Origin: Neisseria sp. oral taxon 014 str. F0314
GTDB taxonomy: Bacteria > Pseudomonadota > Gammaproteobacteria > Burkholderiales > Neisseriaceae
Length of the DNA stretch: 64,000 nucleotides
Direction: 5' to 3'
NCBI RefSeq assembly: GCF_005886145.1
Contig: NZ_CP040504.1
Span: 2,418,001-2,482,000 of the forward strand
The notes beneath the pieces are model-generated. The model worked only from the letters and a program-made list of their open reading frames with translations, was not told the origin of the DNA and did not search any database. The first letter of the stretch is position 1. The number at the start of each line of letters is the position of its first letter. Below, piece after piece: positions 8,863 through 21,624 of the stretch. Made by a program: the position numbers and the translations under genes.

Positions 8863-9230
8863 GGCGTTTTCTTTATAAAGTAAGTGATGTTCGGCTCCAC
8901 TGTGAGGGGAGATAAGGGCAGAAAAGCCGTTTTAAAGGGAGCCGTCCCATTCCCGCCCTTGATAAAGCCGTTAAGTATAATAAGTATCGACTGCTTTATC
9001 AAACTTATCCGAAAGGAGGGCGGATTAATCGTATTCAGACGGCCTAAAAGGAGACGGAAAGATGCAAACAAACGAAAAATTCGAGTAGTTTGCTTTACAA
9101 AGCCTTTGATTTTAAGCAAAATAATAGATTGAAAATAATTCGGGAAACGCCTGTGTTCAAGTTAGGTATTTAATTAGAAATACGGCAAGGCCCGTTTGAA
9201 ATATCAAAATTAGAAAGATCCATAATACCG
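8863..9230. promoter_or_regulatory. Divergent clpX/pbpG promoter region with inverted repeat
   Basis: This 368-bp gap lies between two divergent genes and must hold both promoters. It contains a 10-bp inverted repeat, TTGATAAAGC (8959-8968) with GCTTTATCAA (8993-9002), separated by 24 bp. One half DUS (GACGGCCT) lies near 9040. Short frames across it have no coding character. Confidence 0.5.
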
Positions 9231-9233
9231 ATG

Positions 9234-10166
9234 ATGAAACTATGCAAAAAAATGACTGCCGTCTGCTTGGGCGTATCGCTCTCATTGGCGGCAATGCCGG
9301 CGGTGGCCGACGATATGGACGTGCTGGGCCAGTTTTTGGAACAGAATTTTCCAACCCAGCAAGACCCTTTGGAAGTTTTAGCAATCAGCAAAGCCGAGCA
9401 GGTAGAAGCGCAGGCGATGATGGCGGGGCCGCTGCTTTCTTCGCAGTCTGCCTTAATTATGAACAACAAAACCGGTGAAGTACTGTATCAGAAAAACGCC
9501 AACCGCGTGATGCCGATTGCGTCGATTTCCAAACTGATGAGTGCGATTGTGTTGCTGGATGCCGATTTGAACATGAACGAGCTGGTTACGATTACGCCTG
9601 AAGAAATCGATCGGTTGAAAGGTACGGGTAGCCGTTTGAGTATCGGTACGTCGCTGCCGCGCAAGGAATTGCTGCACTTGAGCCTGATGAGCAGCGAAAA
9701 CCGTGCGACCCACGCGCTGGCGCGTACTTATCCGGGCGGGATTAACGCATTCGTTGCGGCTATGAATGCCAAGGCGCAAAGTTTGGGTATGAGCAACAGC
9801 CGTTTTTATGAACCGACCGGTTTGGATTACCGCAATGTATCGACTGCGCACGACTTGAGCCGCCTGGTGGCTGCGGCAAGCAAGTATCCTCTTATCCGTC
9901 GTAATTCCACTTCCAATTACGGGGCGGTTTCTACGGCGTCGGGTAGTCAGCGTTATAAAAATTCTAATGCGTTGGTGCGTGAGGGCGGTTGGAATATTGA
10001 ATTGCAGAAAACCGGTTATATCCGTGAGGCAGGCCGTTCGATGGTGGTTAAGGCCAATGTGCAGAACCAACCGATTACCATCGTGCTGCTTAATTCTCCG
10101 TCATCCACAACCCGCGTGAATGATGCGCGTAAAATCGAATCTTGGATGTTGCAACGCCGTTCTTAA
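9234..10166 (+). CDS. pbpG: D-alanyl-D-alanine endopeptidase / PBP7-8 family
   Basis: Periplasmic low-molecular-weight penicillin-binding protein that would cleave peptide cross-links in peptidoglycan. A signal peptide ends near AVADD. The three active-site motifs are present (numbered from an ATG 3 bp earlier): S98-I-S-K101, S155-E-N157 and K260-T-G. The length of about 310 aa matches PbpG. Two adjacent ATG codons (9231, 9234) could start it; the difference is one residue. It is a single gene ending 80 bp before a DUS terminator and diverges from clpX. Confidence 0.92.
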   Translation: MKLCKKMTAVCLGVSLSLAAMPAVADDMDVLGQFLEQNFPTQQDPLEVLAISKAEQVEAQAMMAGPLLSSQSALIMNNKTGEVLYQKNANRVMPIASISKLMSAIVLLDADLNMNELVTITPEEIDRLKGTGSRLSIGTSLPRKELLHLSLMSSENRATHALARTYPGGINAFVAAMNAKAQSLGMSNSRFYEPTGLDYRNVSTAHDLSRLVAAASKYPLIRRNSTSNYGAVSTASGSQRYKNSNALVREGGWNIELQKTGYIREAGRSMVVKANVQNQPITIVLLNSPSSTTRVNDARKIESWMLQRRS

Positions 10167-10245
10167 TGCAGTTTGCCGGAAGTGGCAAAACAACTGTAAT
10201 ACTTGATATAACGATAAAAACCGCGTTAGCAGTATGATTTATGGG

Positions 10246-10279
10246 AAGGCCGTCTGAAAATCCGTTTCAGACGGCCTTT
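10246..10279 (+). terminator. DUS inverted-pair terminator of pbpG
   Basis: AAGGCCGTCTGAAAA and its complement form a tight hairpin followed by T-rich sequence, 80 bp after the pbpG stop. Confidence 0.85.
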
Positions 10280-10337
10280 GTTGTTGTTTTTTGTTATGTA
10301 TTTGTATTTAATCAATAATATTAACCAAGGAGGTTTT

Positions 10338-11114
10338 ATGCAATTATTTCCAAATATGCGTTTGGCTTTATTGGTTACTGTCGTTACCGTCGCGGCGGGC
10401 TGTACTTCTGTCGCCGACATGGTCGGTTACGATACCGAAACATTGAATGAAAGTGCGGCTAAAAGCTATTTGCAGGTTTTGCGTCAGGCGCAGAGCAAAC
10501 AGGTATTGGATACCTCGTCGCGGACGTCGCGGCGGATTACGGCGGTGTTCAATCGTCTGAAGCCGTATGCGGAAAGGGAAAACCGCACGGGAGTGCCGTT
10601 CCGTTGGCAAATGAACGTTATCCGCAGCAATGATTTGAACGCGTGGGCAATGCCGGGCGGGAAAATGGTCATGTACACGGGTATGGTAGACAGGTTGCAC
10701 CTGAGCGATGACGAAATTGCTGCCGTTATCGGTCATGAAATGACTCACGCGCTGTTGGAACACAGTAAAAAAGCCATCGGCGGACAGGTGCTGACCGGTC
10801 TCGGCGGTTCGATATTGGCCAGCGCTACCGGTGTGGACGGCGGACTGGTCGGGCTGGGCTCAGACTTGATTGCAACCAAACCTTTTTCCCGTTATCAGGA
10901 AAGCGAAGCCGATGCGGGCGGGGTAAGGCTGATGGCGCAGGCGGGTTACAATCCGCAAGCGGCAGTAACGGTATGGGACAAGATGAGCAAGGTTCAGGGC
11001 GGTATGGCTGTGGCGTTGCTCTCTTCGCATCCGACCAACGAGGCGCGCAGGCAGGCAATCATACGGATGTTGCCGGAAGTGATGCCGATATATCAGCGCA
11101 GCCGCAGCCGTTGA
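10338..11114 (+). CDS. M48-family metallopeptidase lipoprotein
   Basis: Predicted membrane-anchored zinc protease of the envelope (family M48, LoiP/BepA-like). The start was chosen at 10338 because AGGAGG lies just before it and because the protein then begins with a lipoprotein signal peptide ending in VAAGC, with Cys22 as the lipid attachment site. The catalytic motif is H133-E-M-T-H137, and the third ligand region is E188-S-E-A-D192. There are 258 residues and no TPR extension, so it resembles the short YcaL/LoiP type rather than BepA. The family's usual role is quality control of outer-membrane proteins; the substrate here is unknown. Confidence 0.9.
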   Translation: MQLFPNMRLALLVTVVTVAAGCTSVADMVGYDTETLNESAAKSYLQVLRQAQSKQVLDTSSRTSRRITAVFNRLKPYAERENRTGVPFRWQMNVIRSNDLNAWAMPGGKMVMYTGMVDRLHLSDDEIAAVIGHEMTHALLEHSKKAIGGQVLTGLGGSILASATGVDGGLVGLGSDLIATKPFSRYQESEADAGGVRLMAQAGYNPQAAVTVWDKMSKVQGGMAVALLSSHPTNEARRQAIIRMLPEVMPIYQRSRSR

Positions 11115-11131
11115 GGGGGAGAGGATATTTG

Positions 11132-11165
11132 GAGGCCGTCTGGAAAGTTTCAGACGGCCTTTTTG
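11132..11165 (+). terminator. DUS hairpin terminator of the M48 peptidase gene
   Basis: AGGCCGTCTGGAA pairs with TTTCAGACGGCCT and is followed by five T. The left arm carries one base change from the uptake consensus (TGGAA instead of TGAAA). Confidence 0.85.
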
Positions 11166-11799
11166 TGGAATTAAATTACATTCGTATCTTTATCAAATAT
11201 TTTCGTCTTAGGCCGTCTGAAAAAAGATCTAGGATAAAAAGCAGCTATGATTTATAAAAAGTTTTGATTGCATCGAGAAGAATGGCAGGCAGGGGGCAAT
11301 ACAAGGTTTTTGTTAACCGGATTGAGGTTTATATTGTTTTTTTTGATTTGCATCAAGGTTGTTTAAGATTATGAAATTTTCCAACATTGGAATATTTGCA
11401 ATGATCTTTTATTCCTTTATGTATTAAATACAAAATGTTAGTTATGCTTTTAATACGGGTAATAATGAAATTTAGTTGTATTTGGCAAGTTTAAATTTTA
11501 TTAACCTGAAACCGGACGTATTATTTTCATTTTGAGAAACATGAATTTGGTTTTCAGACGGCCTGCTGTTGATGGGATTTTGTCTACAATCCTATAGCTG
11601 CTATCTGTCAAGTGGGAGGCAATTCATTCATGCTTGTTTTCTGTTACACTTCATCTGCGTTGTAGACCTTGATTTATATAATAAATTCTTGAGTATATTG
11701 CTCAACTTTCCCATTTTCCGTCGGTTCGCGAATGTAATAAAAATACGGAACGGTTTTCCGTTTATGAACATCATCCCTAAAATTCCACAGGACACTACC
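11166..11799. promoter_or_regulatory. Long AT-rich leader of the reductase-like operon
   Basis: About 630 bp without a supported gene. It contains a single DUS (about 11213), a perfect FNR box (11343-11356), a 14-bp palindrome (11379-11392) and another half DUS (about 11553). The frame of the first operon gene stays open back to 11569, but the added residues look non-coding and lack a ribosome binding site. The real start at 11800 has AGGA upstream. Confidence 0.6.
11343..11356 (+). promoter_or_regulatory. Perfect FNR-type box
   Basis: TTGAT-TTGC-ATCAA matches the FNR consensus TTGAT-N4-ATCAA at all ten positions. It suggests oxygen-responsive control of the downstream reductase-like genes. 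No good -10 hexamer stands at the class II distance, where instead there is a palindrome TTCCAACATTGGAA (11379-11392). The box is about 450 bp from the first start codon, so the transcript would have a long leader. Confidence 0.6.
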
Positions 11800-12438
11800 A
11801 TGAGTGAAAACTTGTTAACCCTGACCATAGACGGCCACGAGGTCAAAGCCTCTGCCGACTCGTCAATCATTCAGGCCTATGCCCGTTCCGGCAGCGCGAT
11901 TACCGCCAACGTCGGCTGTATGGGGCAAGGCGTGTGCGGTTCGTGCCGCTGCATGATCCGCAAGGAAGGCGAGCGCGAGGTAACGACTGCATTGGCGTGT
12001 GAAACCAAAGTCGAAGAAGGGATGCAGGTCAGCTTCTTGGACTACTTCATTCCCGAGCATATCCAATATTACGACGTGAGCGAGGTCGGCGACGGCTGGA
12101 ACTGGCTGGACGACACCGCCAAAGCCTTCCCCGAAGCGCAACACTGCCGTCATTGCGGCGGCTGCAACCGCGCCTGCCCCAAAGGTTTGGAAGTGGAAAA
12201 CGGCGTGGCGCAAGTGGTATCGGGCGATTTCGGCGCGGCTGCGCTGACCTTCGACCAATGCGTGATGTGCAACCTCTGCACCCTTTCCTGTCCCGAACAC
12301 ATCCGTCCGAACCACTTGGGTCTGTTCGCCCGCCGCATGAAAGCAGCGCGCACGCTGCGTCCGGTGGATTTGATGCGCCGCCTGCGTGAAATCGACAGCG
12401 GCAAAATGAAAGTCGAATTTGAAGAGGAGGCAATGTGA
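11800..12438 (+). CDS. SdhB/FrdB-like iron-sulfur electron-transfer protein
   Basis: Predicted electron carrier between a NADH-oxidising and a fumarate-reductase-like subunit. It has 212 residues. The N-terminal ferredoxin domain has Cys40, Cys46, Cys49 and Cys67 for a [2Fe-2S] cluster, with an extra Cys51. The C-terminal alpha-helical ferredoxin domain has two CxxCxxCxxxCP motifs: Cys116/119/122/126 and Cys154/157/160/164. SdhB/FrdB normally bind a [3Fe-4S] cluster at the last site; here all four cysteines are kept, so two [4Fe-4S] clusters are likely. The stop overlaps the next start by one base (TGATG), so the genes are translationally coupled. There is no membrane segment. This is not the usual sdhB, because no sdhC/sdhD anchors are near. 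Confidence 0.85.
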   Translation: MSENLLTLTIDGHEVKASADSSIIQAYARSGSAITANVGCMGQGVCGSCRCMIRKEGEREVTTALACETKVEEGMQVSFLDYFIPEHIQYYDVSEVGDGWNWLDDTAKAFPEAQHCRHCGGCNRACPKGLEVENGVAQVVSGDFGAAALTFDQCVMCNLCTLSCPEHIRPNHLGLFARRMKAARTLRPVDLMRRLREIDSGKMKVEFEEEAM

Positions 12439-14066
12439 TGGCGAACGAAATCCAAGGCATAGACTACGAAACCGCCCTTGCCAACCTGCGCGCTTCCTCA
12501 TTGGAACTGCGCGGCGACCTGCCGGAAAAAAACGAATTGTTGAGTCAGTTTCACCCCGACTATCAGGCCAATGCGCGCGTCAAACTACCCATCGGCCCGA
12601 ACACGGGCGATTACTGCCATCCCGATTTGGCGAAACTGCTGATCAGTCATCCCCTGATTGACGACTATGATTTGTCGGGCGCGGAACACTTGAACACCGA
12701 CGTACTGGTTATCGGCGGCGGCGGTGCGGGCGCGGCGGCGGCGTTATCTGCGACCGAGGCAGGCGCGCGCGTGATTATGGCGAACAAGCTGCGTATCGGC
12801 GACAGCAATACCGTGATGGCCGAAGGCGGCATTCAGGCGGCGGTTGGCGCGGAAGACAGCTTGCAGCAGCACTTTGACGACACCATCAAAGGCGGCCACA
12901 ACGCAGGCAAAAAAGAATTGGTGGCGCAAATGGTTACCGACGCGCCGTCCGCCATCCGCTGGCTGATCGGCTTGGGCATGACTTTCGACCTTGCCAAAGG
13001 TGCGGACAGCAACGGCATGTTGAGCCGCAAACGTGCAGGCGGTACGACCGTGCCGCGCATCCTGAGCTACCGCGACTTTACCGGCCTCGAAATGATGCGC
13101 GTACTGCGCGAGGCGGTCGAGCTCGACGAAAACATCACCCAGCTCAACCGCCACCCCGCCATCGAATTATTGTCGGACGAACACGGCCGCTGCGTCGGCG
13201 CGATTTTGTACGATTTGGAAAAACGCTCTTTGGTATTGGTTCACGCCAAAGCCGTGGTCTTGGCAACCGGCGGCAGCGGACGGCTGCATTTACAGGGTTT
13301 CGCCACTTCCAACCACTACGGCGCAACTGCCGACGGTCTGGTGATGGCATACCGCATCGGCGCGAAACTGCGCGACATTGATTCCTTCCAATACCATCCG
13401 ACCGGCGTCGCCCATCCGCCGCACTTGGCAGGCGCGCTGATTTCCGAAGCCGTCCGTTCCGCAGGCACCAAACTGGTCAACGGTTTGGGCGAGCGTTTCG
13501 TTGACGAATTGCAGCCGCGCGACGTCGTTGCCGCCGCTATTTTGCGCGAGTGCCGCGAAGGCCGCGGCGTGGTGCGCGACGGACAGGTCGGCGTGTTCCT
13601 CGACACCCCGCGCCTGATTGAAAACGATCCCGACGTGTTGAACCGTTTAGTTACGCTCGGCCACGTTGCCCACAAATGCGGCATCGACCCCGCTGTCGAG
13701 CCTGTAATGATTCATCCGACCCTGCACTACCAAAACGGCGGCGTCGAAATCAACGGCGACGGCGCAACCTGCGTCGAAGGCCTCTATTGCGCCGGCGAAG
13801 TAACCGGCGGCATCCACGGCCGCAACCGCTTAATGGGCAATGCGCTTCTGGACATCATCAGCTTCGGCCGCCGCGCGGGTAAAGCCGCCGCCGGTTGCGG
13901 TCTGCCGCTGAAAAAAGTGCGCGGCGGTGTCGGACACGTCCACGATCTGCAACGCGAAATGACCCGCGCCGGACTGACCAGCGACATCAAAGCCCCCGTT
14001 TTATATCCCGACTACGGCAAATTCGATTTGCGCGAACACGCCGGTTTGCAGGAGCAACAATCATGA
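12438..14066 (+). CDS. FrdA/SdhA-like FAD-dependent fumarate reductase flavoprotein
   Basis: Soluble FAD-binding protein of the succinate dehydrogenase/fumarate reductase/L-aspartate oxidase family, 542 aa. An N-terminal extension of about 85 residues precedes the Rossmann motif VIGGGGAGAA (91-100). The catalytic residues known from FrdA can be placed: His320 (QYHPTG), Glu337 (ISEAVR), Arg361 (PRD), His430 (TLHYQNGG) and Arg464 (GRNRLMGN). The set is complete for fumarate/succinate chemistry, although a related unsaturated acid cannot be excluded. It has no heme or membrane domain. GAGGAGG lies before the start. The gene overlaps its neighbours by 1 and 4 bp, which ties it to the Fe-S and NADH-binding subunits as one complex. 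Confidence 0.85.
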   Translation: MANEIQGIDYETALANLRASSLELRGDLPEKNELLSQFHPDYQANARVKLPIGPNTGDYCHPDLAKLLISHPLIDDYDLSGAEHLNTDVLVIGGGGAGAAAALSATEAGARVIMANKLRIGDSNTVMAEGGIQAAVGAEDSLQQHFDDTIKGGHNAGKKELVAQMVTDAPSAIRWLIGLGMTFDLAKGADSNGMLSRKRAGGTTVPRILSYRDFTGLEMMRVLREAVELDENITQLNRHPAIELLSDEHGRCVGAILYDLEKRSLVLVHAKAVVLATGGSGRLHLQGFATSNHYGATADGLVMAYRIGAKLRDIDSFQYHPTGVAHPPHLAGALISEAVRSAGTKLVNGLGERFVDELQPRDVVAAAILRECREGRGVVRDGQVGVFLDTPRLIENDPDVLNRLVTLGHVAHKCGIDPAVEPVMIHPTLHYQNGGVEINGDGATCVEGLYCAGEVTGGIHGRNRLMGNALLDIISFGRRAGKAAAGCGLPLKKVRGGVGHVHDLQREMTRAGLTSDIKAPVLYPDYGKFDLREHAGLQEQQS

Positions 14067-15316
14067 ACCAAGCCAATCAAAACTTACTGCACCCGTCCCG
14101 CCAAGTCGGCGCGGATTTGGCCGCGTGGCGCAAAGTCGGCGGCGGCGAAGGCCTGCTGGCAGCGCTTGCCGATCCTCAAAGCATCGTTTCCAAGCTGCAA
14201 GATGCCAATCTTTGCGGCATGGGCGGCGCAGGTTTCCCGACCTGGCGCAAATGGGAGGCGGCCGTTGCCGCCCAAAGCAAACACGGCGACAAATACGTCG
14301 TCTGCAATGCCAACGAAGACGAACCGGGTACGTTTAAAGACCGCGTATTGCTGGCGAAAACGCCGCACCAAGTCATCGAAGGCGTTCTGATTGCCGCCGT
14401 CGCCTGCCGAGCCAACAAAGCGATTATGTATGTCAACCCGCACCAGACAGAATCCATCGCCGCCATCGTGCCCGCCATCGAGCAATGGAAAAAAAGCGAT
14501 TTGTTCATCCGCATTGAAAACTATCTGGGCAAACCTTTAGACCTGAAATTGGTCGAAACTTCAGGCCGCTACATCGGCGGCGAAGAAACCGCCGTGATTT
14601 CATGGTTGGAAGGCGGTTTCCCGTTCCCGCGCCGCAAGCCGCCGTTCCCCGCCGAAAGCGGCGTAGAAGGCGAACCGACCCTTATCAACAACACCGAAAC
14701 CTTCGCCAACATCCCGCAAATCCTTGCCAAAGGTGCGGAATGGTACAAATCGCTGGGTTTGGGCGATGCCGCAGGCACGAAACTCTACTCGCTTTCCGGC
14801 GACGTATTGAATCCGGGCCTGTACGAACTGCCGATGGGCACGACCCTGCAATCGCTGATTTTCGACCACGGCGGCGGTATGCTTGAAGGACGGACGTTTA
14901 AAGCCGTCTTCACCGGCGGCCCGTCAAACACGCTCTTGACCGTAAAAGATTTGGACGTGCCTTTGGACTTCGTGTCCGTGCGCGAACGCAAATCCAGCCT
15001 CGGCACGGGCGCGATGATTGTGATTTCCGAAGGAACCAGCGTGGTGCGTAAAGTGTCCGAGTATGTGGAATTTTTTGCGTCCAACTCATGCGGACAATGC
15101 CCGCCGTGCAAAGGCGGCACGTTCCAACTTTCACGCCTGCTCAACCGCGTGGATACCGGCATCGGCACTTCAGACGACCTCCGCGCCCTGCAAAGCCTGT
15201 GCCAACTGCTGCCACGAAGCGGCCGCTGCGGCCTGATTGACGGCGCGGTTACCGTGTTGCAAAGCTCGCTGCGCACCTTCCCCGAAGAGTACGGACTGCC
15301 GGCGGAGCAGGATTAA
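14063..15316 (+). CDS. NuoF-like NADH-binding FMN/[4Fe-4S] subunit
   Basis: Predicted NADH dehydrogenase module that passes electrons from NADH through FMN to an iron-sulfur cluster. It is 417 aa and homologous to the 51-kDa NuoF subunit. Features in order are the NADH glycine-rich loop GMGGAGFPT (52-60), the FMN region CNANEDEPGTFKDR (81-94), a SLBB-like segment, and the N3-type cluster with Cys343, Cys346, Cys349 and Cys389. The start overlaps the FrdA-like stop (ATGA). No other nuo genes are present, so this is not complex I. Operon position suggests a soluble NADH-dependent reductase with the two upstream products. A variant-DUS hairpin follows at 15329. Confidence 0.85.
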   Translation: MNQANQNLLHPSRQVGADLAAWRKVGGGEGLLAALADPQSIVSKLQDANLCGMGGAGFPTWRKWEAAVAAQSKHGDKYVVCNANEDEPGTFKDRVLLAKTPHQVIEGVLIAAVACRANKAIMYVNPHQTESIAAIVPAIEQWKKSDLFIRIENYLGKPLDLKLVETSGRYIGGEETAVISWLEGGFPFPRRKPPFPAESGVEGEPTLINNTETFANIPQILAKGAEWYKSLGLGDAAGTKLYSLSGDVLNPGLYELPMGTTLQSLIFDHGGGMLEGRTFKAVFTGGPSNTLLTVKDLDVPLDFVSVRERKSSLGTGAMIVISEGTSVVRKVSEYVEFFASNSCGQCPPCKGGTFQLSRLLNRVDTGIGTSDDLRALQSLCQLLPRSGRCGLIDGAVTVLQSSLRTFPEEYGLPAEQD

Positions 15317-15328
15317 TCCGATACGGGG

Positions 15329-15366
15329 TTTCAGACGACCTTTTCTGTATGGGAGGTCGTCTGAAA
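15329..15366 (+). terminator. Variant-DUS inverted-pair terminator after the NuoF-like gene
   Basis: TTTCAGACGACCT and AGGTCGTCTGAAA form a hairpin starting 12 bp after the stop codon. Both arms carry GTCGTCTGAA, the dialect of the mucosa/sicca group. It probably ends most transcription before the transporter gene. Confidence 0.75.
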
Positions 15367-15480
15367 AATACCTGTATGAACCAACATGATGAATTAGGGT
15401 TTAAGTATTTGTTGGATTTCACAACATAAATTACTTACAGGACGGTTCGTCATCAGAAAAACGATACGGTGCATCCTGAG

Positions 15481-15672
15481 GTTTTGCCCTCTCCCTAACC
15501 CTCTCCCGCGGGAGAGGGGACAAATTGCAGAAAATCCGATAATGGTCGATTTCAGCACCATTATTCCCTCTCCCGCGGGTAGAGGGGACAGATTGCAGAA
15601 AATCTGATAAAGGTTGATTTTCAGCGCCATTATTCCCTCTCCCCGTGGGAGAGGGCTAGGGAGAGGGCAAAA
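15481..15672. repeat. 192-bp repeat element with 27-bp terminal inverted repeats
   Basis: The ends GTTTTGCCCTCTCCC... and ...GGGAGAGGGCAAAAC are inverted repeats over about 27 bp with one mismatch. Inside are three CTCCC/GGGAG hairpins and two copies of a unit containing ATTGCAGAAAATCYGATAA. Related hairpin elements lie at 25775-26040, 26813-26970 and 45394-45510. It resembles a non-coding miniature element. Confidence 0.7.
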
Positions 15673-15858
15673 CGTAAAAGCTCAAGAAACGTCGTCTGAA
15701 AAAGATGACAACACAAACACGCATTACCCAAACCACCAAAAGAAAAACATAAAAAACAACTGCTGCCAAATACGTTTCAGACGACCTGTTCCCACCAAAA
15801 TCAGGCACACGTCGTCTGAAATCCGATTTCCCCGATACCTCAAACTAGGAGACTCAAC
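15673..15858. promoter_or_regulatory. Leader of the SLC13 transporter gene with variant DUS
   Basis: This AT-rich segment holds three GTCGTCTGAA-type uptake sequences (about 15691, 15776 and 15811). An AGGAGA ribosome binding site lies directly before the transporter start. No clear promoter hexamers were seen. Confidence 0.5.
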
Positions 15859-17310
15859 ATGGGCTTCAAGCCAATTCCTGCTGCGGTTGCGCTCGCGCTG
15901 ACGCTGATTATCTGGTTCGTCATACCCGTGCCGCAGGGTGTATCGCCCGACGCATGGCACCTTTTGGCGTTATTCGTCGGTATCATCGCCGGCATCATCG
16001 GCAAAGCCATGCCCATCGGTGCAATGGCGATTTTGGGCATTACCTTGGTCGCGCTGACCGGCGTGACCAACGAAAAAGCCGCCGACGCAACCAAAGACGC
16101 TCTGAGCAGCCTCAACAACTCGTTAATCTGGATGATCGGTATCGCCATCATCATCTCGCGCGGTTTGTTGAAAACCGGCTTGGGGATGCGTATCGGCTAC
16201 CTTCTGATTTCCCTTTTCGGCAAACGCACGCTGGGCGTAGGTTACAGCCTGGCTTTGGCCGACTTGGTCATCGGCCCGGTTACGCCAAGTAACACCGCGC
16301 GCGGCGGCGCCATCGTGCATCCGATTATGCGCTCCATCGCCCTGAGTTTCGATTCCGACCCCGAAAAAGGCACAGAGGGCAAAATCGGTAAATACCTCGC
16401 GCTGGTCAACTACCACGCCAACATCATCACCTGCTGTATCTTCATTACCGCGACCGCGCCCAACCCGCTGGTCGTCGAATTGGTCGCCAAAGCCACCAAT
16501 TCGGAAATCCACCTCTCTTGGGGCACATGGTTCGCCGCTATGGCCGTACCCGGCCTGATTGCCATGTTCCTGATGCCGCTGGTGCTGTATTTCCTGTATC
16601 CGCCCGAAATCAAACAAACACCTAACGCGACCGCCCTTGCCAAAGAAAAACTGAAAGAAATGGGCGCAATGAAGCGCGACGAAAAAATCATGCTCGGCAT
16701 TTTCGTGATTCTGCTGCTTTTGTGGGCGGGCGTTCCCGAAATGCTGTTCGGCGTGAAAGTCGATGCCACCGCCACCACCTTCCTCGGTCTCTCACTGTGT
16801 CTCTTGACCGGCGTACTGACTTGGGACGACGCGCTGAAAGAAAAAGGCGCGTGGGACACCATCGTCTGGTTTGCCGCCTTGGTCATGATGGCGAACTTCC
16901 TCAACAAATTGGGACTGATTGCATGGCTGTCTGAATCCCTGCAGGGCGGCATCTCCCATCTCGGCTTGGGCTGGGAAGCCGGTTGCGCCCTGTTGGTACT
17001 CGCCTACCTATACGCCCACTACGTTTTCGCCAGCGGCACGGCACACGTTACCGCCATGTTCGGCGCCTTCTACGGTGCAGGCCTCGCCTTGGACGCACCA
17101 CCGATGCTGTTCGCCCTGATTATGGCATCCGCCACCGGCATCATGATGTCGCTGACCCACTACGCTTCAGGTTCATCCCCAGTCATCTACGGCTCGAACT
17201 ATGTCAGCATGACCGAATGGTGGAAAGCCGGCTTCATCATGAGCGTGGTCGAAATCCTGATTTTCGGCACCATCGGTATTATCTGGTGGAAAGTGCTGGG
17301 CTACTGGTAA
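15859..17310 (+). CDS. SLC13/DASS-family sodium:dicarboxylate transporter
   Basis: Inner-membrane symporter of the divalent anion:sodium family, 483 aa with about 12 hydrophobic segments. Family landmarks are PSNTARGGAIVHPIM in the first half and the SGTAHVTAMFGAF and LTHYASGSSPVIYG regions in the second, which together form the substrate and sodium sites. Likely substrates are C4-dicarboxylates such as fumarate, malate or succinate, or 2-oxoglutarate. It follows the reductase-like operon in the same direction, 540 bp on and beyond a terminator. It may supply or export the acids used by that enzyme, but this link is inferred from position only. Confidence 0.9.
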   Translation: MGFKPIPAAVALALTLIIWFVIPVPQGVSPDAWHLLALFVGIIAGIIGKAMPIGAMAILGITLVALTGVTNEKAADATKDALSSLNNSLIWMIGIAIIISRGLLKTGLGMRIGYLLISLFGKRTLGVGYSLALADLVIGPVTPSNTARGGAIVHPIMRSIALSFDSDPEKGTEGKIGKYLALVNYHANIITCCIFITATAPNPLVVELVAKATNSEIHLSWGTWFAAMAVPGLIAMFLMPLVLYFLYPPEIKQTPNATALAKEKLKEMGAMKRDEKIMLGIFVILLLLWAGVPEMLFGVKVDATATTFLGLSLCLLTGVLTWDDALKEKGAWDTIVWFAALVMMANFLNKLGLIAWLSESLQGGISHLGLGWEAGCALLVLAYLYAHYVFASGTAHVTAMFGAFYGAGLALDAPPMLFALIMASATGIMMSLTHYASGSSPVIYGSNYVSMTEWWKAGFIMSVVEILIFGTIGIIWWKVLGYW

Positions 17311-17343
17311 ACTGCCGTTTGACGCATTGCCGATATAAGGCAT

Positions 17344-17390
17344 AAAAGCCGAAGGCCGTCTGAAAAATTTTCAGACGGCCTTCGGCTTTT
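17344..17390 (+). terminator. Long DUS-containing terminator
   Basis: AAAAGCCGAAGGCCGTCTG and its complement form a perfect stem of about 23 bp with AT-rich ends, 34 bp after the transporter stop. The convergent lipoprotein gene ends 20 bp further on, so it likely serves both. Confidence 0.9.
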
Positions 17391-17409
17391 ATCGGACGGA
17401 TAAGTGCTG

Positions 17410-17592
17410 TTACATCGGGCCTCTTTCGGGGCCGCGTCCGTCGTCGGGACCGTGCATGTGATGATGGTGTCCGCCGTGTCCTTCAGGACCCGGTCCCGGA
17501 CTTGGGGGAACCACGCAGCCGGTCAGAGCGAGCAGGGCGGCGGCAGTTATGCCCAAGCCCAGTGCGGATTTGATTTTAGACAAATGAATCAT
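17410..17592 (-). CDS. Small His-rich lipoprotein (60 aa)
   Basis: Hypothetical lipoprotein. The start at 17592 follows AAGGA at a good distance. The signal peptide ends in a lipobox LTGC with Cys26. The 34-residue mature part is proline- and glycine-rich and contains HGGHHHHMHG, a likely binding site for a metal such as nickel, zinc or copper. There is no recognised domain. It is a single gene convergent with the transporter. The frame is open further upstream, but those residues lack a signal sequence and a ribosome binding site. The metal role is inferred from composition alone. Confidence 0.7.
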   Translation of the reverse strand: MIHLSKIKSALGLGITAAALLALTGCVVPPSPGPGPEGHGGHHHHMHGPDDGRGPERGPM

Positions 17593-17910
17593 AGTATCCA
17601 TCCTTTGATGGGGAACGGGGTGGGGAACGGAAGGATTCTCGCTTTCTCTGGGAGTATGAAATTGAAAACAACAAACCGCTCCCCGAAGATTAACCATTTT
17701 ACGCCACGCACTTTAACGGACGGCCGCGTTGCAGTGTACGCGGCTTGTGTAAAACTTGTTTTCCGGTTTTCCGTAGAATCAGCGGCGGAACGTGTTTATT
17801 TTGATTCCTATTAAATCCGATTAAAACAGGTAAGGCCGTCTGAACAAAATCCGTTTGTTCAGACGGCCTTTGCGTTACAATACGGGCATTTCCACAAATC
17901 GGGCCGCATC
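17593..17910. other. Divergent intergenic region, lipoprotein gene/trkA
   Basis: This 318-bp gap holds the promoter of the small lipoprotein gene and an AT-rich stretch. The DUS hairpin at 17832-17870 lies just upstream of trkA. No gene is supported here. Confidence 0.6.
17832..17870. terminator. DUS inverted pair upstream of trkA
   Basis: AAGGCCGTCTGAACAAA and its complement form a perfect 17-bp stem around a 5-bp loop. No gene on the plus strand ends just before it, so it may act as an attenuator-like structure or simply as paired uptake sequences. Confidence 0.7.
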
Positions 17911-19320
17911 GTGAAAATCCTCATCATCGGCAGCGGGCAGGTCGGTTCGACCGTCGCCCAAAACCTCGCCTCTTCCTCCGCCAACGACGTTACCATCGTC
18001 GATTTGGACGAAAAAGCGCTGCACAGAATCGGCAGCCGGCTGGACGTGCAAACCATAGTGGGCAACGGCGCATCCCCGTTTGTCCTCGAACAGGCGGGCG
18101 CGGCCGATTCCGACCTGCTGCTGGCACTGACCCGCAGCGACGAAACCAATATCGTCGCCTGCAAAATCGCCGCCGACCTGTTCAATATTCCCAGCCGCAT
18201 CGCCCGCGTGCGTTCGGCGGAATATCTGGAATACCTGCATCCGTCGGCAGACGGCGGAGAGGAAGCCGACAGCCTGAGCATTTTCGACATTACCGAAACC
18301 ATCAGTCCCGAACAGCTCGTAACCGAGCAACTTGTCGGCCTGCTCAGCTATACCAGCGCATTGCAGGTTTTGCGCTTCAGCGACGACAGGGCGCGGATGG
18401 TGGTGGTGCAGGCACGGCAGGGCGGTTTGCTGGTCAACAAAGAAATCGCGCAGATTAACGAGCACTTGCCCGAAGGTGCCGACTGCCAGATTTGCGCGGT
18501 TTACCGCAACAACCGCCTGATTGTACCCTCGTCCAAAACCGTGATTATTGAAGGCGACGAAGTGTTTTTCGTCGCCAGTACCGACAGCATTAACGCCATC
18601 ATGCGCGAATTGCGGCCGAACGAACAGCATACCCGTCGCATCATGATTGCCGGCGGCGGCAAAATCGGCCACCGGCTGGCCAAACAGCTTGAAAACGAAT
18701 ACGACATCAAAATCATCGAATACAGCAGCAGCCGCGCCGAATGGCTGGCGGAAAACCTCGACAACACCCTGGTTTTGCAAGGCACCGCCACCGACGAAAC
18801 CCTGCTCGACGAAGAATACATCGACGAAATCGACGTTTTCTGCGCCCTGACCAACGACGACGAAAACAATATCATGTCCAGCCTGCTGGCGAAAAACCGC
18901 GGCGCCAAGCGCGTGATTACCATCGTCAACCGTTCCAGCTACGTCGATTTGCTCGAAGGCAACAAAATCGACATCGTGGTGTCGCCGCACCTGATAACCA
19001 TCGGTTCGATACTCGCCCACATCCGCCGCGGCGATATTTCCGCAGTTTACCCGCTGCGGCGCGGCACGGCCGAGGCCATCGAAGTGGTGGTGCACGGCGA
19101 CAAAAAGACCTCGTCCATCGTCGGGCGCAAAATATCCGACGTGAAATGGCCGCAGGGATGCCATTTTGCCGCGCTGGTGCGCGGAGACGAAGTCATTATG
19201 GCGCACCGCGGCGGAACGGTCTTGCAGGACGGCGACCATATCATCTTCTTCGTTTCGCGCCGCCGCGTGTTGCGCGAACTGGAAAAACTGATTCAGGTGA
19301 AAATGGGCTTTTTCGGTTAG
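17911..19320 (+). CDS. trkA: Trk potassium uptake regulator TrkA
   Basis: Cytosolic NAD(H)-binding regulatory subunit of the Trk potassium channel. The 469 aa comprise two RCK_N/RCK_C repeats: Rossmann motifs IIGSGQVGS (about 5-13) and IAGGGKIGH (near 247), each followed by a regulatory C subdomain. The start codon is GTG, chosen because the Rossmann strand begins immediately at KILIIGSG. The membrane partner TrkH is not in the window. The gene stands alone between a DUS hairpin and the SIMPL-domain gene. Confidence 0.95.
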   Translation: MKILIIGSGQVGSTVAQNLASSSANDVTIVDLDEKALHRIGSRLDVQTIVGNGASPFVLEQAGAADSDLLLALTRSDETNIVACKIAADLFNIPSRIARVRSAEYLEYLHPSADGGEEADSLSIFDITETISPEQLVTEQLVGLLSYTSALQVLRFSDDRARMVVVQARQGGLLVNKEIAQINEHLPEGADCQICAVYRNNRLIVPSSKTVIIEGDEVFFVASTDSINAIMRELRPNEQHTRRIMIAGGGKIGHRLAKQLENEYDIKIIEYSSSRAEWLAENLDNTLVLQGTATDETLLDEEYIDEIDVFCALTNDDENNIMSSLLAKNRGAKRVITIVNRSSYVDLLEGNKIDIVVSPHLITIGSILAHIRRGDISAVYPLRRGTAEAIEVVVHGDKKTSSIVGRKISDVKWPQGCHFAALVRGDEVIMAHRGGTVLQDGDHIIFFVSRRRVLRELEKLIQVKMGFFG

Positions 19321-19386
19321 GCCGCCGTTTTTTCAGACGGCCTCCCAATGTTATTTTTCAATACTTCGATAAAAAAGGTGGAAACT

Positions 19387-20097
19387 ATGTTACGCAACGT
19401 TTTGATCGCTTCCCTCATCGCCGCCGCAACCCTGCCTGCCGCCGCCGAGCCGCTGAACTACAATGTCGTCGAATTTTCCGAAAGCGCAGGGATGAAAGTG
19501 CCGCGCGATACCATGACCGCAATGTTCCGCATCCGTGCCGAAGGCAAAGAGCGGCAGGCCGTGAACGCCGCTTTTATGGAGAAATTCAACGATTTCAGCC
19601 GTAAGGCCAAAAAAAGCGCGTTCAAAACCGAACTGACCGGCCGCAACGCCATGCCGCGCTACCAATACAACAACGGCAAACGTACGCAAACCGGTTGGGA
19701 AGAAAGCGCCGAATTAAAAGTGGAAAGCAAAGACTTCGCCGCACTCAACCGCCTGATTGCCGAGACTCAAACCAGCGCCGAAGTGGCGCAGACCTATTTC
19801 AGCGTATCCAAGCAGAAGCGCGAAGAAATCATCGACCAAGTCAGCAAAGCCGCCCTGCTGCGCTTTAAAGAACGCGCCCAAGCATTAACGCGCACGCTCG
19901 GTTTCTCGAATTACAAAATCGTCAAACTCAATTTGGGACATGTCGGCAGCCAAGTATCGGAACGAAGCACCGAGGCCGTCATGATGCGCAGCAAGGCTGT
20001 CGCCATGTCGATGGCCGCCTCTAGCGAAGAAATGGATAATGTGTCTCCGGGCAGCGAGGAAATCAGCATTACGGTAGACGGCAGCATTCAGATGTAA
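19387..20097 (+). CDS. Periplasmic SIMPL (DUF541) domain protein
   Basis: Exported protein of 236 aa with a signal peptide ending near PAAAEP. The remainder matches the SIMPL/DUF541 fold (BP26/YggE-like): an N-terminal alternating segment, a long helix (KQKREEIIDQVSKAALLRFKE region) and a C-terminal strand EISITVDGSIQM. The family forms oligomers in the periplasm and has been linked to stress tolerance, but no reaction is known. The start follows AGGTGG. The gene lies 66 bp after trkA and may be read from the same transcript. Confidence 0.8.
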   Translation: MLRNVLIASLIAAATLPAAAEPLNYNVVEFSESAGMKVPRDTMTAMFRIRAEGKERQAVNAAFMEKFNDFSRKAKKSAFKTELTGRNAMPRYQYNNGKRTQTGWEESAELKVESKDFAALNRLIAETQTSAEVAQTYFSVSKQKREEIIDQVSKAALLRFKERAQALTRTLGFSNYKIVKLNLGHVGSQVSERSTEAVMMRSKAVAMSMAASSEEMDNVSPGSEEISITVDGSIQM

Positions 20098-20160
20098 GGC
20101 CGTCTGAAACGGCACGGGGCAAGTGCCGGAAGCCTCACCGAAGCAAACCTCAAAGAAATA

Positions 20161-20206
20161 AAAAGGCCGTCTGAAAACCCTTCAATCGTTTTTCAGACGG
20201 CCTTTG
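20161..20206. terminator. DUS inverted pair, bidirectional terminator
   Basis: AAAAGGCCGTCTGAAAA pairs with its complement around an 11-bp loop. It lies between the convergent SIMPL and fumC genes and can serve both. Confidence 0.85.
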
Positions 20207-20235
20207 CTTGTTTCAAAACTATCGGCAAAACACGA

Positions 20236-21624
20236 TTAACGCGGATGAACCATATCGGCGGGGACGACCAGTTCGTCAAACTCTTCGCCTGTCAGTAAGC
20301 CCAACTCGACGGCGGTTTCGCGCAGCGATTTGTCGTTTTTATAGGCGGTTTTGGCGACTTTGGCGGCATTTTCGTAGCCGATTTTGCGGTTCAATGCGGT
20401 AACGAGCATCAGGGAATGGTGCAGGAAATAGTCGATTTTTTCCGGCACGGGTTCGATGCCGGCGGCGCAGTTTTCGTTGAAGCTGTTGCACGCGTCGCCC
20501 AACAGGCGGATGGATTGCAAGAGGTTGTAGGCGATAACGGGCATATAGACGTTCAGCTCGAAATTGCCCGACGCGCCCGCCATGCTGATGGTAACGTCGT
20601 TGCCGAACACTTGGCAGCACACCATGGTCATTGCTTCGCATTGGGTCGGGTTGACTTTGCCCGGCATGATGGACGAACCCGGCTCGTTTTCGGGGATTTT
20701 GATTTCGCCCAAACCGCAGCGCGGGCCGCTTGCCAGCCAGCGGATGTCGTTGGCGATTTTGTTCAGGCTTGCCGCCAGCGTTTTCAATGCGCCCGAAGCG
20801 GCAACGGCGGCATCGCGTCCGCCCAAGGCTTCAAATTTGTTCGGCGCGCTGACAAACGGCAGGCCGGACAATTCGGCAAGTTTGGCGGCGGCTTTTTCGG
20901 CGTATTCGGGATGGCTGTTCAAACCCGTGCCGACCGCTGTGCCGCCCAAAGCGAGTTCGTACAAACCTTTGAGCGCGTCGTTCAGACGGCCTAAGCCGTG
21001 GTCGAGCTGGGAAACGTAGCCGGAAAACTCTTGTCCCAAAGTCAGCGGCGTCGCGTCCTGCAAATGGGTGCGGCCGATTTTGACGATGGGGGCGAAGGCT
21101 TGGGCTTTTTTGTCCAATGTGTCGCGCAGGGCTTGGACGGAGGGGATGAGGTGGCGGTTGATTTCAATCGCGGCAGCAACGTGGATGGCGGTCGGGAACG
21201 CGTCGTTGGTCGATTGCGCGTGGTTCACATGGTCATTGGGATGGACGGGCTGATACGCCGCCAAACCTGTACCGGCGATTTCGTTGGCGCGGTTCGCCAG
21301 CACTTCGTTCATGTTCATATTGGATTGCGTGCCGGAGCCAGTCTGCCATACTACTAAGGGGAACTGCCCGTCGAGCTTGCCGTTCAACACGTCGTCTGCC
21401 GCCTGCGTAATCAAATCCGCCTGCTCGGGCTTAATCCTGCCTAGGGAAACGTTGGTGGCGGCTGCGGCTTTTTTCACCAGCGCCAAAGCATAAATCAGCG
21501 GCTGCGGCAGGGTTTCGCCGCCGATTTTGAAATTATTGCGGCTGCGCTGGGTCTGCGCGCCCCAATAGGCTTCGGACGGGACTTCGACATTGCCCATGGT
21601 GTCGTGTTCGGTACGGGTGCTCAT
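20236..21624 (-). CDS. fumC: Class II fumarate hydratase
   Basis: Cytosolic, iron-free TCA-cycle enzyme that interconverts fumarate and malate. The 462 aa have the class II order, with the signature [13 protein letters not shown] and the substrate-site segments [10 protein letters not shown] and [20 protein letters not shown]. An AGGAG ribosome binding site stands just before the start. It is one of three genes in the first 22 kb, with acnB and the FrdA-like flavoprotein, that act on TCA acids. Confidence 0.98.

Follow-up and report, generated by a model that had tools for sequence, protein, structure and literature searches.

Which electron donor and which acceptor would be joined by an enzyme that combines a fumarate reductase-like flavoprotein with an iron-sulphur (Fe-S) protein and a subunit resembling NuoF? 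Three genes for such an enzyme lie in the window that we analysed, a 64-kb stretch (positions 2418001-2482000) of the complete 2.50 Mb genome of Neisseria sp. oral taxon 014 str. F0314. A first reading of this DNA from its letters alone (the sequence-only reading) had proposed that the gene products re-oxidise NADH with fumarate at low oxygen, or reduce a related unsaturated acid. We consider it likely that the three genes encode one cytoplasmic, quinone-independent NADH:fumarate oxidoreductase, an enzyme apparently assembled from a fumarate reductase core known in strict anaerobes and the NADH-binding module of respiratory complex I. The first proposal is thus probably right, with support from the catalytic residues, the cofactor ligands, the gene order and the C4-linked neighbours; the other acid is now less likely, although one pocket residue differs from that of E. 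coli FrdA.

Results

The flavoprotein retains the catalytic residues of FrdA

Relatives of the locus were collected with tblastn in a panel of 104 loci: 20 from genomes of the genus, four from plasmid records and 80 from genome contigs, the last being the top 80 out of 419 confirmed stretches. The organisms of these sets partly overlap. We aligned the flavoprotein with E. coli FrdA and NadB, both taken from K-12 DNA, and found H320, T322, E337, R340, R361, H430 and R464 on columns that are invariant with both proteins. H320, E337, R340, R361 and H430 are present in all 104 relatives, R464 is present in 103 with a gap in the remaining one, and position 322 is threonine in 102 and serine in two. 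Ser336 sits at a threonine column of FrdA and is serine or threonine in every relative. The FrdA-like character claimed in the sequence-only reading, with H320, E337, R361, H430 and R464 as its catalytic residues, is therefore borne out by the alignment and by the relatives alike. These residues presumably act as their counterparts do in FrdA.

The column of the histidine that binds flavin adenine dinucleotide (FAD) covalently in FrdA is occupied by Asn124, and by asparagine in all 104 relatives; we predict that the FAD is bound non-covalently. Loss of this histidine from E. coli FrdA hurts succinate oxidation more than fumarate reduction. FrdA aligns to the flavoprotein over 2-417 of 601 residues only, and the C-terminal helical domain PF02910 gave no match in the flavoprotein at E 0.001.

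The top-scoring NCBIfam model for the flavoprotein is TfrA (332.7 bits, cut-off 718). Some databases label close relatives L-aspartate oxidase, and on that view the protein would belong to an L-aspartate oxidase-like or aspartate dehydrogenase-like enzyme that replaces NadB and uses NAD as acceptor. The L-aspartate oxidase (NadB) model TIGR00551 does score 283.1 bits, and the genome has no other nadB; however, this score is under the curated cut-off of 452.75. Ala200 of the flavoprotein occupies the column of E121 in NadB and F116 in FrdA, and the loss of the NadB glutamate disfavours an aspartate oxidase. A search of the whole genome found no match to nadA and no nadB over the cut-off, so this organism apparently cannot convert aspartate into quinolinate. 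A nadB over the cut-off also accompanies the flavoprotein in 12 of the 24 genomes of the genus that carry the latter. On the absence of nadA and this co-occurrence with nadB we rejected the replacement of NadB, which is extremely unlikely; if the fumarate reading holds, the database label is a naming error.

The Fe-S and NuoF-like subunits have complete ligand sets

The Fe-S protein has an N-terminal [2Fe-2S] motif (C40, C46, C49 and C67) and two full C-x2-C-x2-C-x3-C sets in its C-terminal part (C116, C119, C122 and C126; C154, C157, C160 and C164). None of the twelve cysteines is substituted in 102 relatives, with between 0 and 3 gapped rows per position. Since the third cluster of E. coli FrdB lacks the second cysteine, which is present here, we predict from the motifs that this subunit carries [2Fe-2S] + 2[4Fe-4S]. 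Profile alignment of E. coli FrdB to the subunit has a probability of 96%, and the dhsB model TIGR00384 scores 29.8 bits against a cut-off of 88. The earlier label "SdhB-like" thus stands only in a loose sense, as regards the FrdB alignment, but the cluster content is not of the SdhB type, the third motif having four cysteines.

In the NuoF-like protein, the EDEP motif is found in 61/61 relatives; in the GGAGF motif the glycines are invariant in the 61, with alanine in 58 and phenylalanine in 60. The N3 cysteines C343, C346, C349 and C389 are present in 59 of the 61 and gapped in two. Together with the domains listed in Table 1, these cysteines agree with the NADH/FMN/[4Fe-4S] subunit recognised earlier (FMN, flavin mononucleotide). 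The NuoF model TIGR01959 scores 381.7 bits, under its cut-off of 558.65, and a second NuoF homolog, 40% identical to this protein, is encoded elsewhere in the genome. An electron path described before as complete on paper remains so, with the set of cofactor ligands unbroken in all three subunits.

Order and overlap of the three genes are conserved

The FeS and flavoprotein (FP) genes overlap by 1 bp (TGATG) and the flavoprotein and NuoF-like genes by 4 bp (ATGA), as had been read from the window. In the homology check suggested at that time, all 61 loci of the NuoF type had their genes on one strand and in this same order, FeS-FP-NuoF. The FP-NuoF overlap of four bases recurs in 44 of 60 such loci with data, and an FeS-FP overlap of 1 or 4 bases in 42 of 55 loci with data; these counts include near-identical copies from the genus, with start codons picked by a script. 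Candidate subunit fusions, seen as overlong reading frames, were judged by eye to be out-of-frame extensions in high-GC loci and were rejected.

Using E. coli NuoE, NuoB, FrdC and FrdD as queries, we found no match in the whole window at E 0.001, in agreement with the earlier statement that neither a membrane anchor nor another complex I gene is present, although distant anchors would escape this search. No anchor was found by eye among reading frames of at least 100 amino acids (aa) at 9500-20500. Across the 104 loci the FrdC and FrdD queries gave zero matches, a weak test for distant anchors, and the NuoE query likewise gave none.

Within the genus, 24 of 46 genomes have the flavoprotein gene and 26 the NuoF-like gene, and all 24 are among the 26. 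One genome with the NuoF-like gene only (G034) has it 239 bases from a contig start. In another (G021, C1:2734825-2737509), a full-length NuoF-like match accompanies a flavoprotein gene that is split in two, with a stop codon inside one of the parts, which suggests decay of the operon. Searches at wider range found the NuoF-like gene in 28 of 83 genomes at family level, and the flavoprotein in 6 of 185 genomes at class level (E 1e-130), the window's own genome counted.

One core is found with two alternative sets of partners

A NuoF-like neighbour lies beside the FeS-flavoprotein core in 61 of the 104 loci, and at least one Hdr/Flx gene in 37, with all seven Hdr/Flx genes in 19. No locus has both beside the same core, and six have neither. 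Four of the six (L043, L075, L096 and L100) have little flanking sequence on at least one side, unlike L079 and L083. A tree was built from 82 flavoproteins; of the 104, the 20 copies from the genus and the overlong reading frames L051 and L058 were omitted. One branch, with modest support (SH-aLRT 83), parts 40 rows of the NuoF side from the 42 others. L043, whose contig ends behind the flavoprotein gene, had been assigned to the NuoF side before the tree was made, and places there.

The NuoF side consists mostly of Proteobacteria (Neisseriaceae, Burkholderiaceae, Acetobacteraceae, Xanthobacteraceae and others), and also includes a few Myxococcota and metagenome-assembled genomes (MAGs) of Propionibacteriaceae. 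The other side, whose Hdr/Flx loci come from anaerobes, takes in Treponema, Lachnospiraceae, Ilyobacter, WOR-3, Bipolaricaulota and archaeal MAGs, with one Nitrospina MAG deepest. Flavoproteins of both wirings share a conserved N-terminal extension of about 83 aa, and the window's flavoprotein is 43-49% identical to the Hdr-type proteins in the aligned rows. The column of Ala200 differs between the sides: it holds Ala (39), Pro (21), Val (1) or Cys (1) in the 62 NuoF-side proteins, and Gly in 42 of 42 on the other side.

Two loci have other surroundings. In a WOR-3 MAG (L083, 4010-9001), the core lies between genes for EtfA and an acyl-CoA dehydrogenase, with no NuoF or Hdr detected there; this context is perhaps a third wiring. 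In the Nitrospina MAG (L079), a divergent FeS-flavoprotein pair has no NuoF or Hdr/Flx gene detected within 8 kb on either side.

The distribution also bears on whether we are dealing with one enzyme at all. Three neighbouring redox proteins, with the NuoF-like protein serving some other partner, would fit the lack of gene fusions among the overlong reading frames inspected. Set against this are the gene order, which holds without exception in the 61 loci and mostly comes with overlapping start and stop codons, the co-occurrence of flavoprotein and NuoF-like gene across the genus, and the strict alternation of NuoF with Hdr-Flx beside the same pair, and we regard separate proteins as exceedingly improbable.

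Neighbouring genes point to fumarate

We surveyed the neighbours of 42 NuoF-side loci (L043 included) and 42 other loci, leaving out the copies from the genus. Genes were called by codon scoring, and the queries for malic enzyme, Asp-Al exchanger, SDF, 2HCT and AEC proteins were drawn from the surveyed loci themselves. On the NuoF side, 20 of 42 loci have a fumarase, a malic enzyme or a C4-dicarboxylate transporter as neighbour. SLC13 transporters are present in 15 (nine Neisseriaceae, six others), and class I fumarase, verified in L026 by its Fumerase and Fumerase_C domains, in eight, all of them Neisseriaceae; malic enzyme with an Asp-Al exchanger occurs in three, and SDF, 2HCT and AEC proteins in one each. 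On the other side, class II fumarase adjoins the core in 18 of 42 loci (in one that was tested, TIGR00979 outscores aspA), and a TtdAB-like pair in three. There are also two weak matches to malic enzyme (25%), and the core of the Ilyobacter locus adjoins an annotated aspartate ammonia-lyase. Fumarase occurs beside both wirings, and some loci of the NuoF type also have C4-dicarboxylate transporters or malic enzyme nearby; fumarate is therefore the likely substrate.

Class I fumarase is the upstream neighbour of the operon in 21 of the 24 flavoprotein-bearing genomes of the genus, places being compared by eye. The gene is divergent from the operon in L026 (5014-6537) and in most operon-bearing members of the genus. 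With the L026 protein as query, 38 of 46 genomes of the genus gave matches; among the 24 with the flavoprotein, the three others (the window's genome, G010 and G028) gave none. The fumarase of the window is fumC only, about 3 kb beyond the transporter gene, and is a possible supplier of fumarate. The comparison points to a local rearrangement in the window with loss of the class I fumarase, the segment with the FNR box still accompanying the operon.

The transporter encoded downstream was recognised in the sequence-only reading as an SLC13 dicarboxylate transporter, and the model TIGR00785 agrees (384.5 bits, cut-off 198.6). Over nearly its full length the protein shares 34% identity with CitT and TtdT of E. 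coli, which carry succinate antiporter annotations in K-12, and its nearest solved structures are chloroplast DiT1, the top match, and a bacterial DASS protein (6wtw/6wu1). The protein is a probable exchanger, most likely of succinate for malate or fumarate. That it is the enzyme's own transporter is supported by repeated linkage in the 15 of 42 NuoF-side loci, but not as regards co-transcription, because its gene starts 542 bp downstream of the NuoF-like gene, behind a repeat-rich spacer. This spacer (15481-15673) holds direct and inverted copies of CCCTCTCCC...GGGAGAGGG, and uptake-sequence-like inverted repeats.

An FNR box lies upstream of the operon

The FNR box noted earlier was confirmed: an exact TTGATTTGCATCAA precedes the first ATG by about 450 bp. 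This is the sole exact match to TTGATNNNNATCAA in the window; shuffled sequences gave a mean of 0.07, and 6 of 100 had at least one. An identical 14-mer is listed as a gonococcal nosR site in PMC1802743. By eye, 21 of 22 aligned Neisseriaceae upstream regions have TTGA[CT]N4[AG]TCAA at the matching position (L035 differs), between about 370 and 530 bases from the start codon. Three of these 21 sites match the FNR consensus exactly and six have two mismatches. Since the two-mismatch level is reached 40 times within the window, the aligned position weighs more than the match itself. The search described in PMC1802743 covered 200 bases; the sites lie beyond this distance, and direct control by FNR is therefore plausible but unproven.

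Two further leader motifs are conserved in the Neisseriaceae alignment, one like TGAAATTTTATAACA at ~11371-11386, after the FNR box, and one like TGTAATAAAAATACA at ~11733-11747, 50-70 bases before the first ATG. Promoter and terminator scans yielded no more than shuffled sequences. An RNA element in the long leader was considered and rejected, the three Rfam matches (E up to 0.5, 9000-18000) being far under their gathering scores. Before the operon (9231-11114) lie genes named by eye as penicillin-binding-protein-like and M48 peptidase-like.

Table 1. Features of the operon and its surroundings, in window coordinates
Feature	Position	Strand	Basis
FeS gene, Fe-S electron-transfer subunit, 212 aa	11800-12438	+	Pfam Fer2_4 + Fer4_9
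Catalytic flavoprotein (FP), fumarate reductase-like, 542 aa	12438-14066	+	Pfam FAD_binding_2
NuoF-like NADH:FMN:[4Fe-4S] subunit, 417 aa	14063-15316	+	Complex1_51K, SLBB, NADH_4Fe-4S
SLC13/DASS dicarboxylate transporter, 483 aa	15859-17310	+	Na_sulph_symp / TIGR00785
Class II fumarase fumC	20236-21624	-	TIGR00979 752.9 bits, cut-off 664.75
FNR box TTGATTTGCATCAA	11343-11356	not assigned (.)	Exact match to TTGATNNNNATCAA

Discussion

We infer a working model that takes in complex formation, the electron path and its direction, the substrate, the mode of the transporter and control by FNR. NADH would reduce the FMN of the NuoF-like protein by hydride transfer. From there electrons would travel one at a time, first through that protein's own [4Fe-4S] cluster and then through the three clusters of the Fe-S protein, until they reach FAD in the flavoprotein. 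Fumarate would be bound by H320, T322/S336, H430 and R464, and R361 would donate a proton to give succinate. Fumarase would make fumarate from malate, and the SLC13 protein would swap internal succinate for an external C4-dicarboxylate. With potentials of -320 mV for NAD+/NADH and +33 mV for fumarate/succinate, values given in PMC5861303, the reaction would be irreversible in practice and conserve no energy. Under a shortage of oxygen and nitrite, the enzyme would act as an electron sink.

The drop of ~0.35 V is large enough for electron bifurcation, in which two NADH would be oxidised and electron pairs passed to fumarate and to ferredoxin or flavodoxin, the NuoF homolog bifurcating as in HydABC-type enzymes. 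However, HydB has extra ferredoxin domains, unlike the NuoF-like subunit, which is plain at 417 aa, and neither the window nor any of the 104 loci gave a match to the E. coli NuoE query. NuoF homologs are present in bifurcating complexes, but many complexes that contain NuoF do not bifurcate, according to PMC5861303. The sister operons of anaerobes hold HdrABC-Flx, which is proposed to bifurcate in Pseudoclostridium thermosuccinogenes (PMC7282089). We regard bifurcation as quite improbable, and it is highly improbable that facultative and aerobic Proteobacteria use the NuoF-wired enzyme to couple electron flow from NADH to fumarate with ferredoxin or flavodoxin reduction. If true, the latter would give the proposed Hdr-based bifurcating fumarate reductase a NuoF-based equivalent, in organisms not known for this kind of bifurcation.

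Several observations weigh against a plain NADH:fumarate oxidoreductase. The pocket is not identical to that of FrdA on alignment, a phenylalanine next to the active site being replaced by Ala200, and some doubt therefore remains on the exact substrate. None of the C4-linked neighbours tested was found at 22 of 42 NuoF-side loci, some on short contigs, in a raw count uncorrected for random loci; 11 of the 15 Acetobacteraceae/Roseomonadaceae loci make up half of these 22. Several holders, such as Cupriavidus and Roseomonas, are aerobes, in which an anaerobic electron sink is less obvious. Class I fumarase also occurs in 17 of the 22 genomes of the genus in which the threshold used shows no flavoprotein, so its nearness to the operon may be inherited synteny within the genus; different fumarase classes beside the core across phyla are a stronger argument than this nearness. 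The FNR box is far from the ATG, and no report of a purified enzyme of the NuoF type was found in the literature that we searched.

Some of these points would suit the same architecture, likewise driven by NADH, with another enoate dicarboxylate (mesaconate, itaconate, maleate or cis-aconitate) as natural substrate. Ala, Pro or Gly at the column of FrdA F116 would be compatible with this, as would the sporadic spread of the flavoprotein at class level, and the SLC13 family also carries tri- and 2-oxo-acids. By contrast, the catalytic and carboxylate-binding residues of FrdA are kept, fumarase genes adjoin the operon across several phyla, three NuoF-side loci have malic enzyme next door, and PMC7282089 takes the sister type of P. 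thermosuccinogenes to be a fumarate reductase. We consider another enoate unlikely.

If NADH:fumarate reduction is right, no quinone is needed for commensal Neisseria and many Proteobacteria to dump NADH on fumarate, and models of low-oxygen metabolism and succinate excretion in these bacteria would change. One fumarate reductase core would then be wired to different electron inputs, energy-saving Hdr-Flx in strict anaerobes and the simpler NuoF in facultative or aerobic bacteria, and the three-gene soluble enzyme would offer a simple building block for making succinate.

Comparison with known systems

The membrane-bound enzymes FrdABCD and SdhABCD share with this operon the flavoprotein family, the catalytic residues and a two-domain Fe-S partner. 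It differs from them in having no anchor that we could find, in lacking both a histidine for covalent FAD and a helical domain at the C-terminus, in the motif of the third Fe-S cluster, and in an NADH module that replaces quinone. The third subunit resembles NuoF and its soluble relatives (HydB, HoxF and the beta subunit of formate dehydrogenase) in its FMN/NADH domain, SLBB domain and N3-type [4Fe-4S] cluster; unlike NuoF of complex I, it scores below the NuoF cut-off, has no NuoE match nearby and has a new partner flavoprotein. The thiol:fumarate reductase TfrAB of methanogens, which is cytoplasmic, is similar in that TfrA is the best NCBIfam model for the flavoprotein; in contrast to TfrAB, the Fe-S protein lacks a heterodisulfide-type C-terminal domain (Pfam) and the donor module is NuoF-like. 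The transporter is akin to the SLC13/DASS exchangers CitT, TtdT and DiT1 in sequence or structure. Homologs of NuoF occur in both bifurcating and non-bifurcating complexes, as stated in PMC5861303 (Buckel and Thauer).

The closest parallel is the "succinate operon" of P. thermosuccinogenes, treated as a Flx-Hdr-linked fumarate reductase in PMC7282089, which cites a 2019 preprint by Koendjbiharie and van Kranenburg. The two-gene fumarate reductase core is the same, as matched by gene content and order only: 18 Hdr-type loci contain fumC, all seven Hdr/Flx genes, FeS and flavoprotein, in the order implied by the locus tags given there. Unlike that system, a single NuoF-like subunit replaces the seven HdrABC/Flx genes, none of which occurs in the 61 NuoF-type loci, and bifurcation is therefore not obvious. 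In the literature searched, with most subscription journals and all bioRxiv preprints outside it, we found no description of the NuoF-wired form. Thus, what is already known is the core, proposed as a fumarate reductase of anaerobes, and what is new here is its different NADH input, NuoF.

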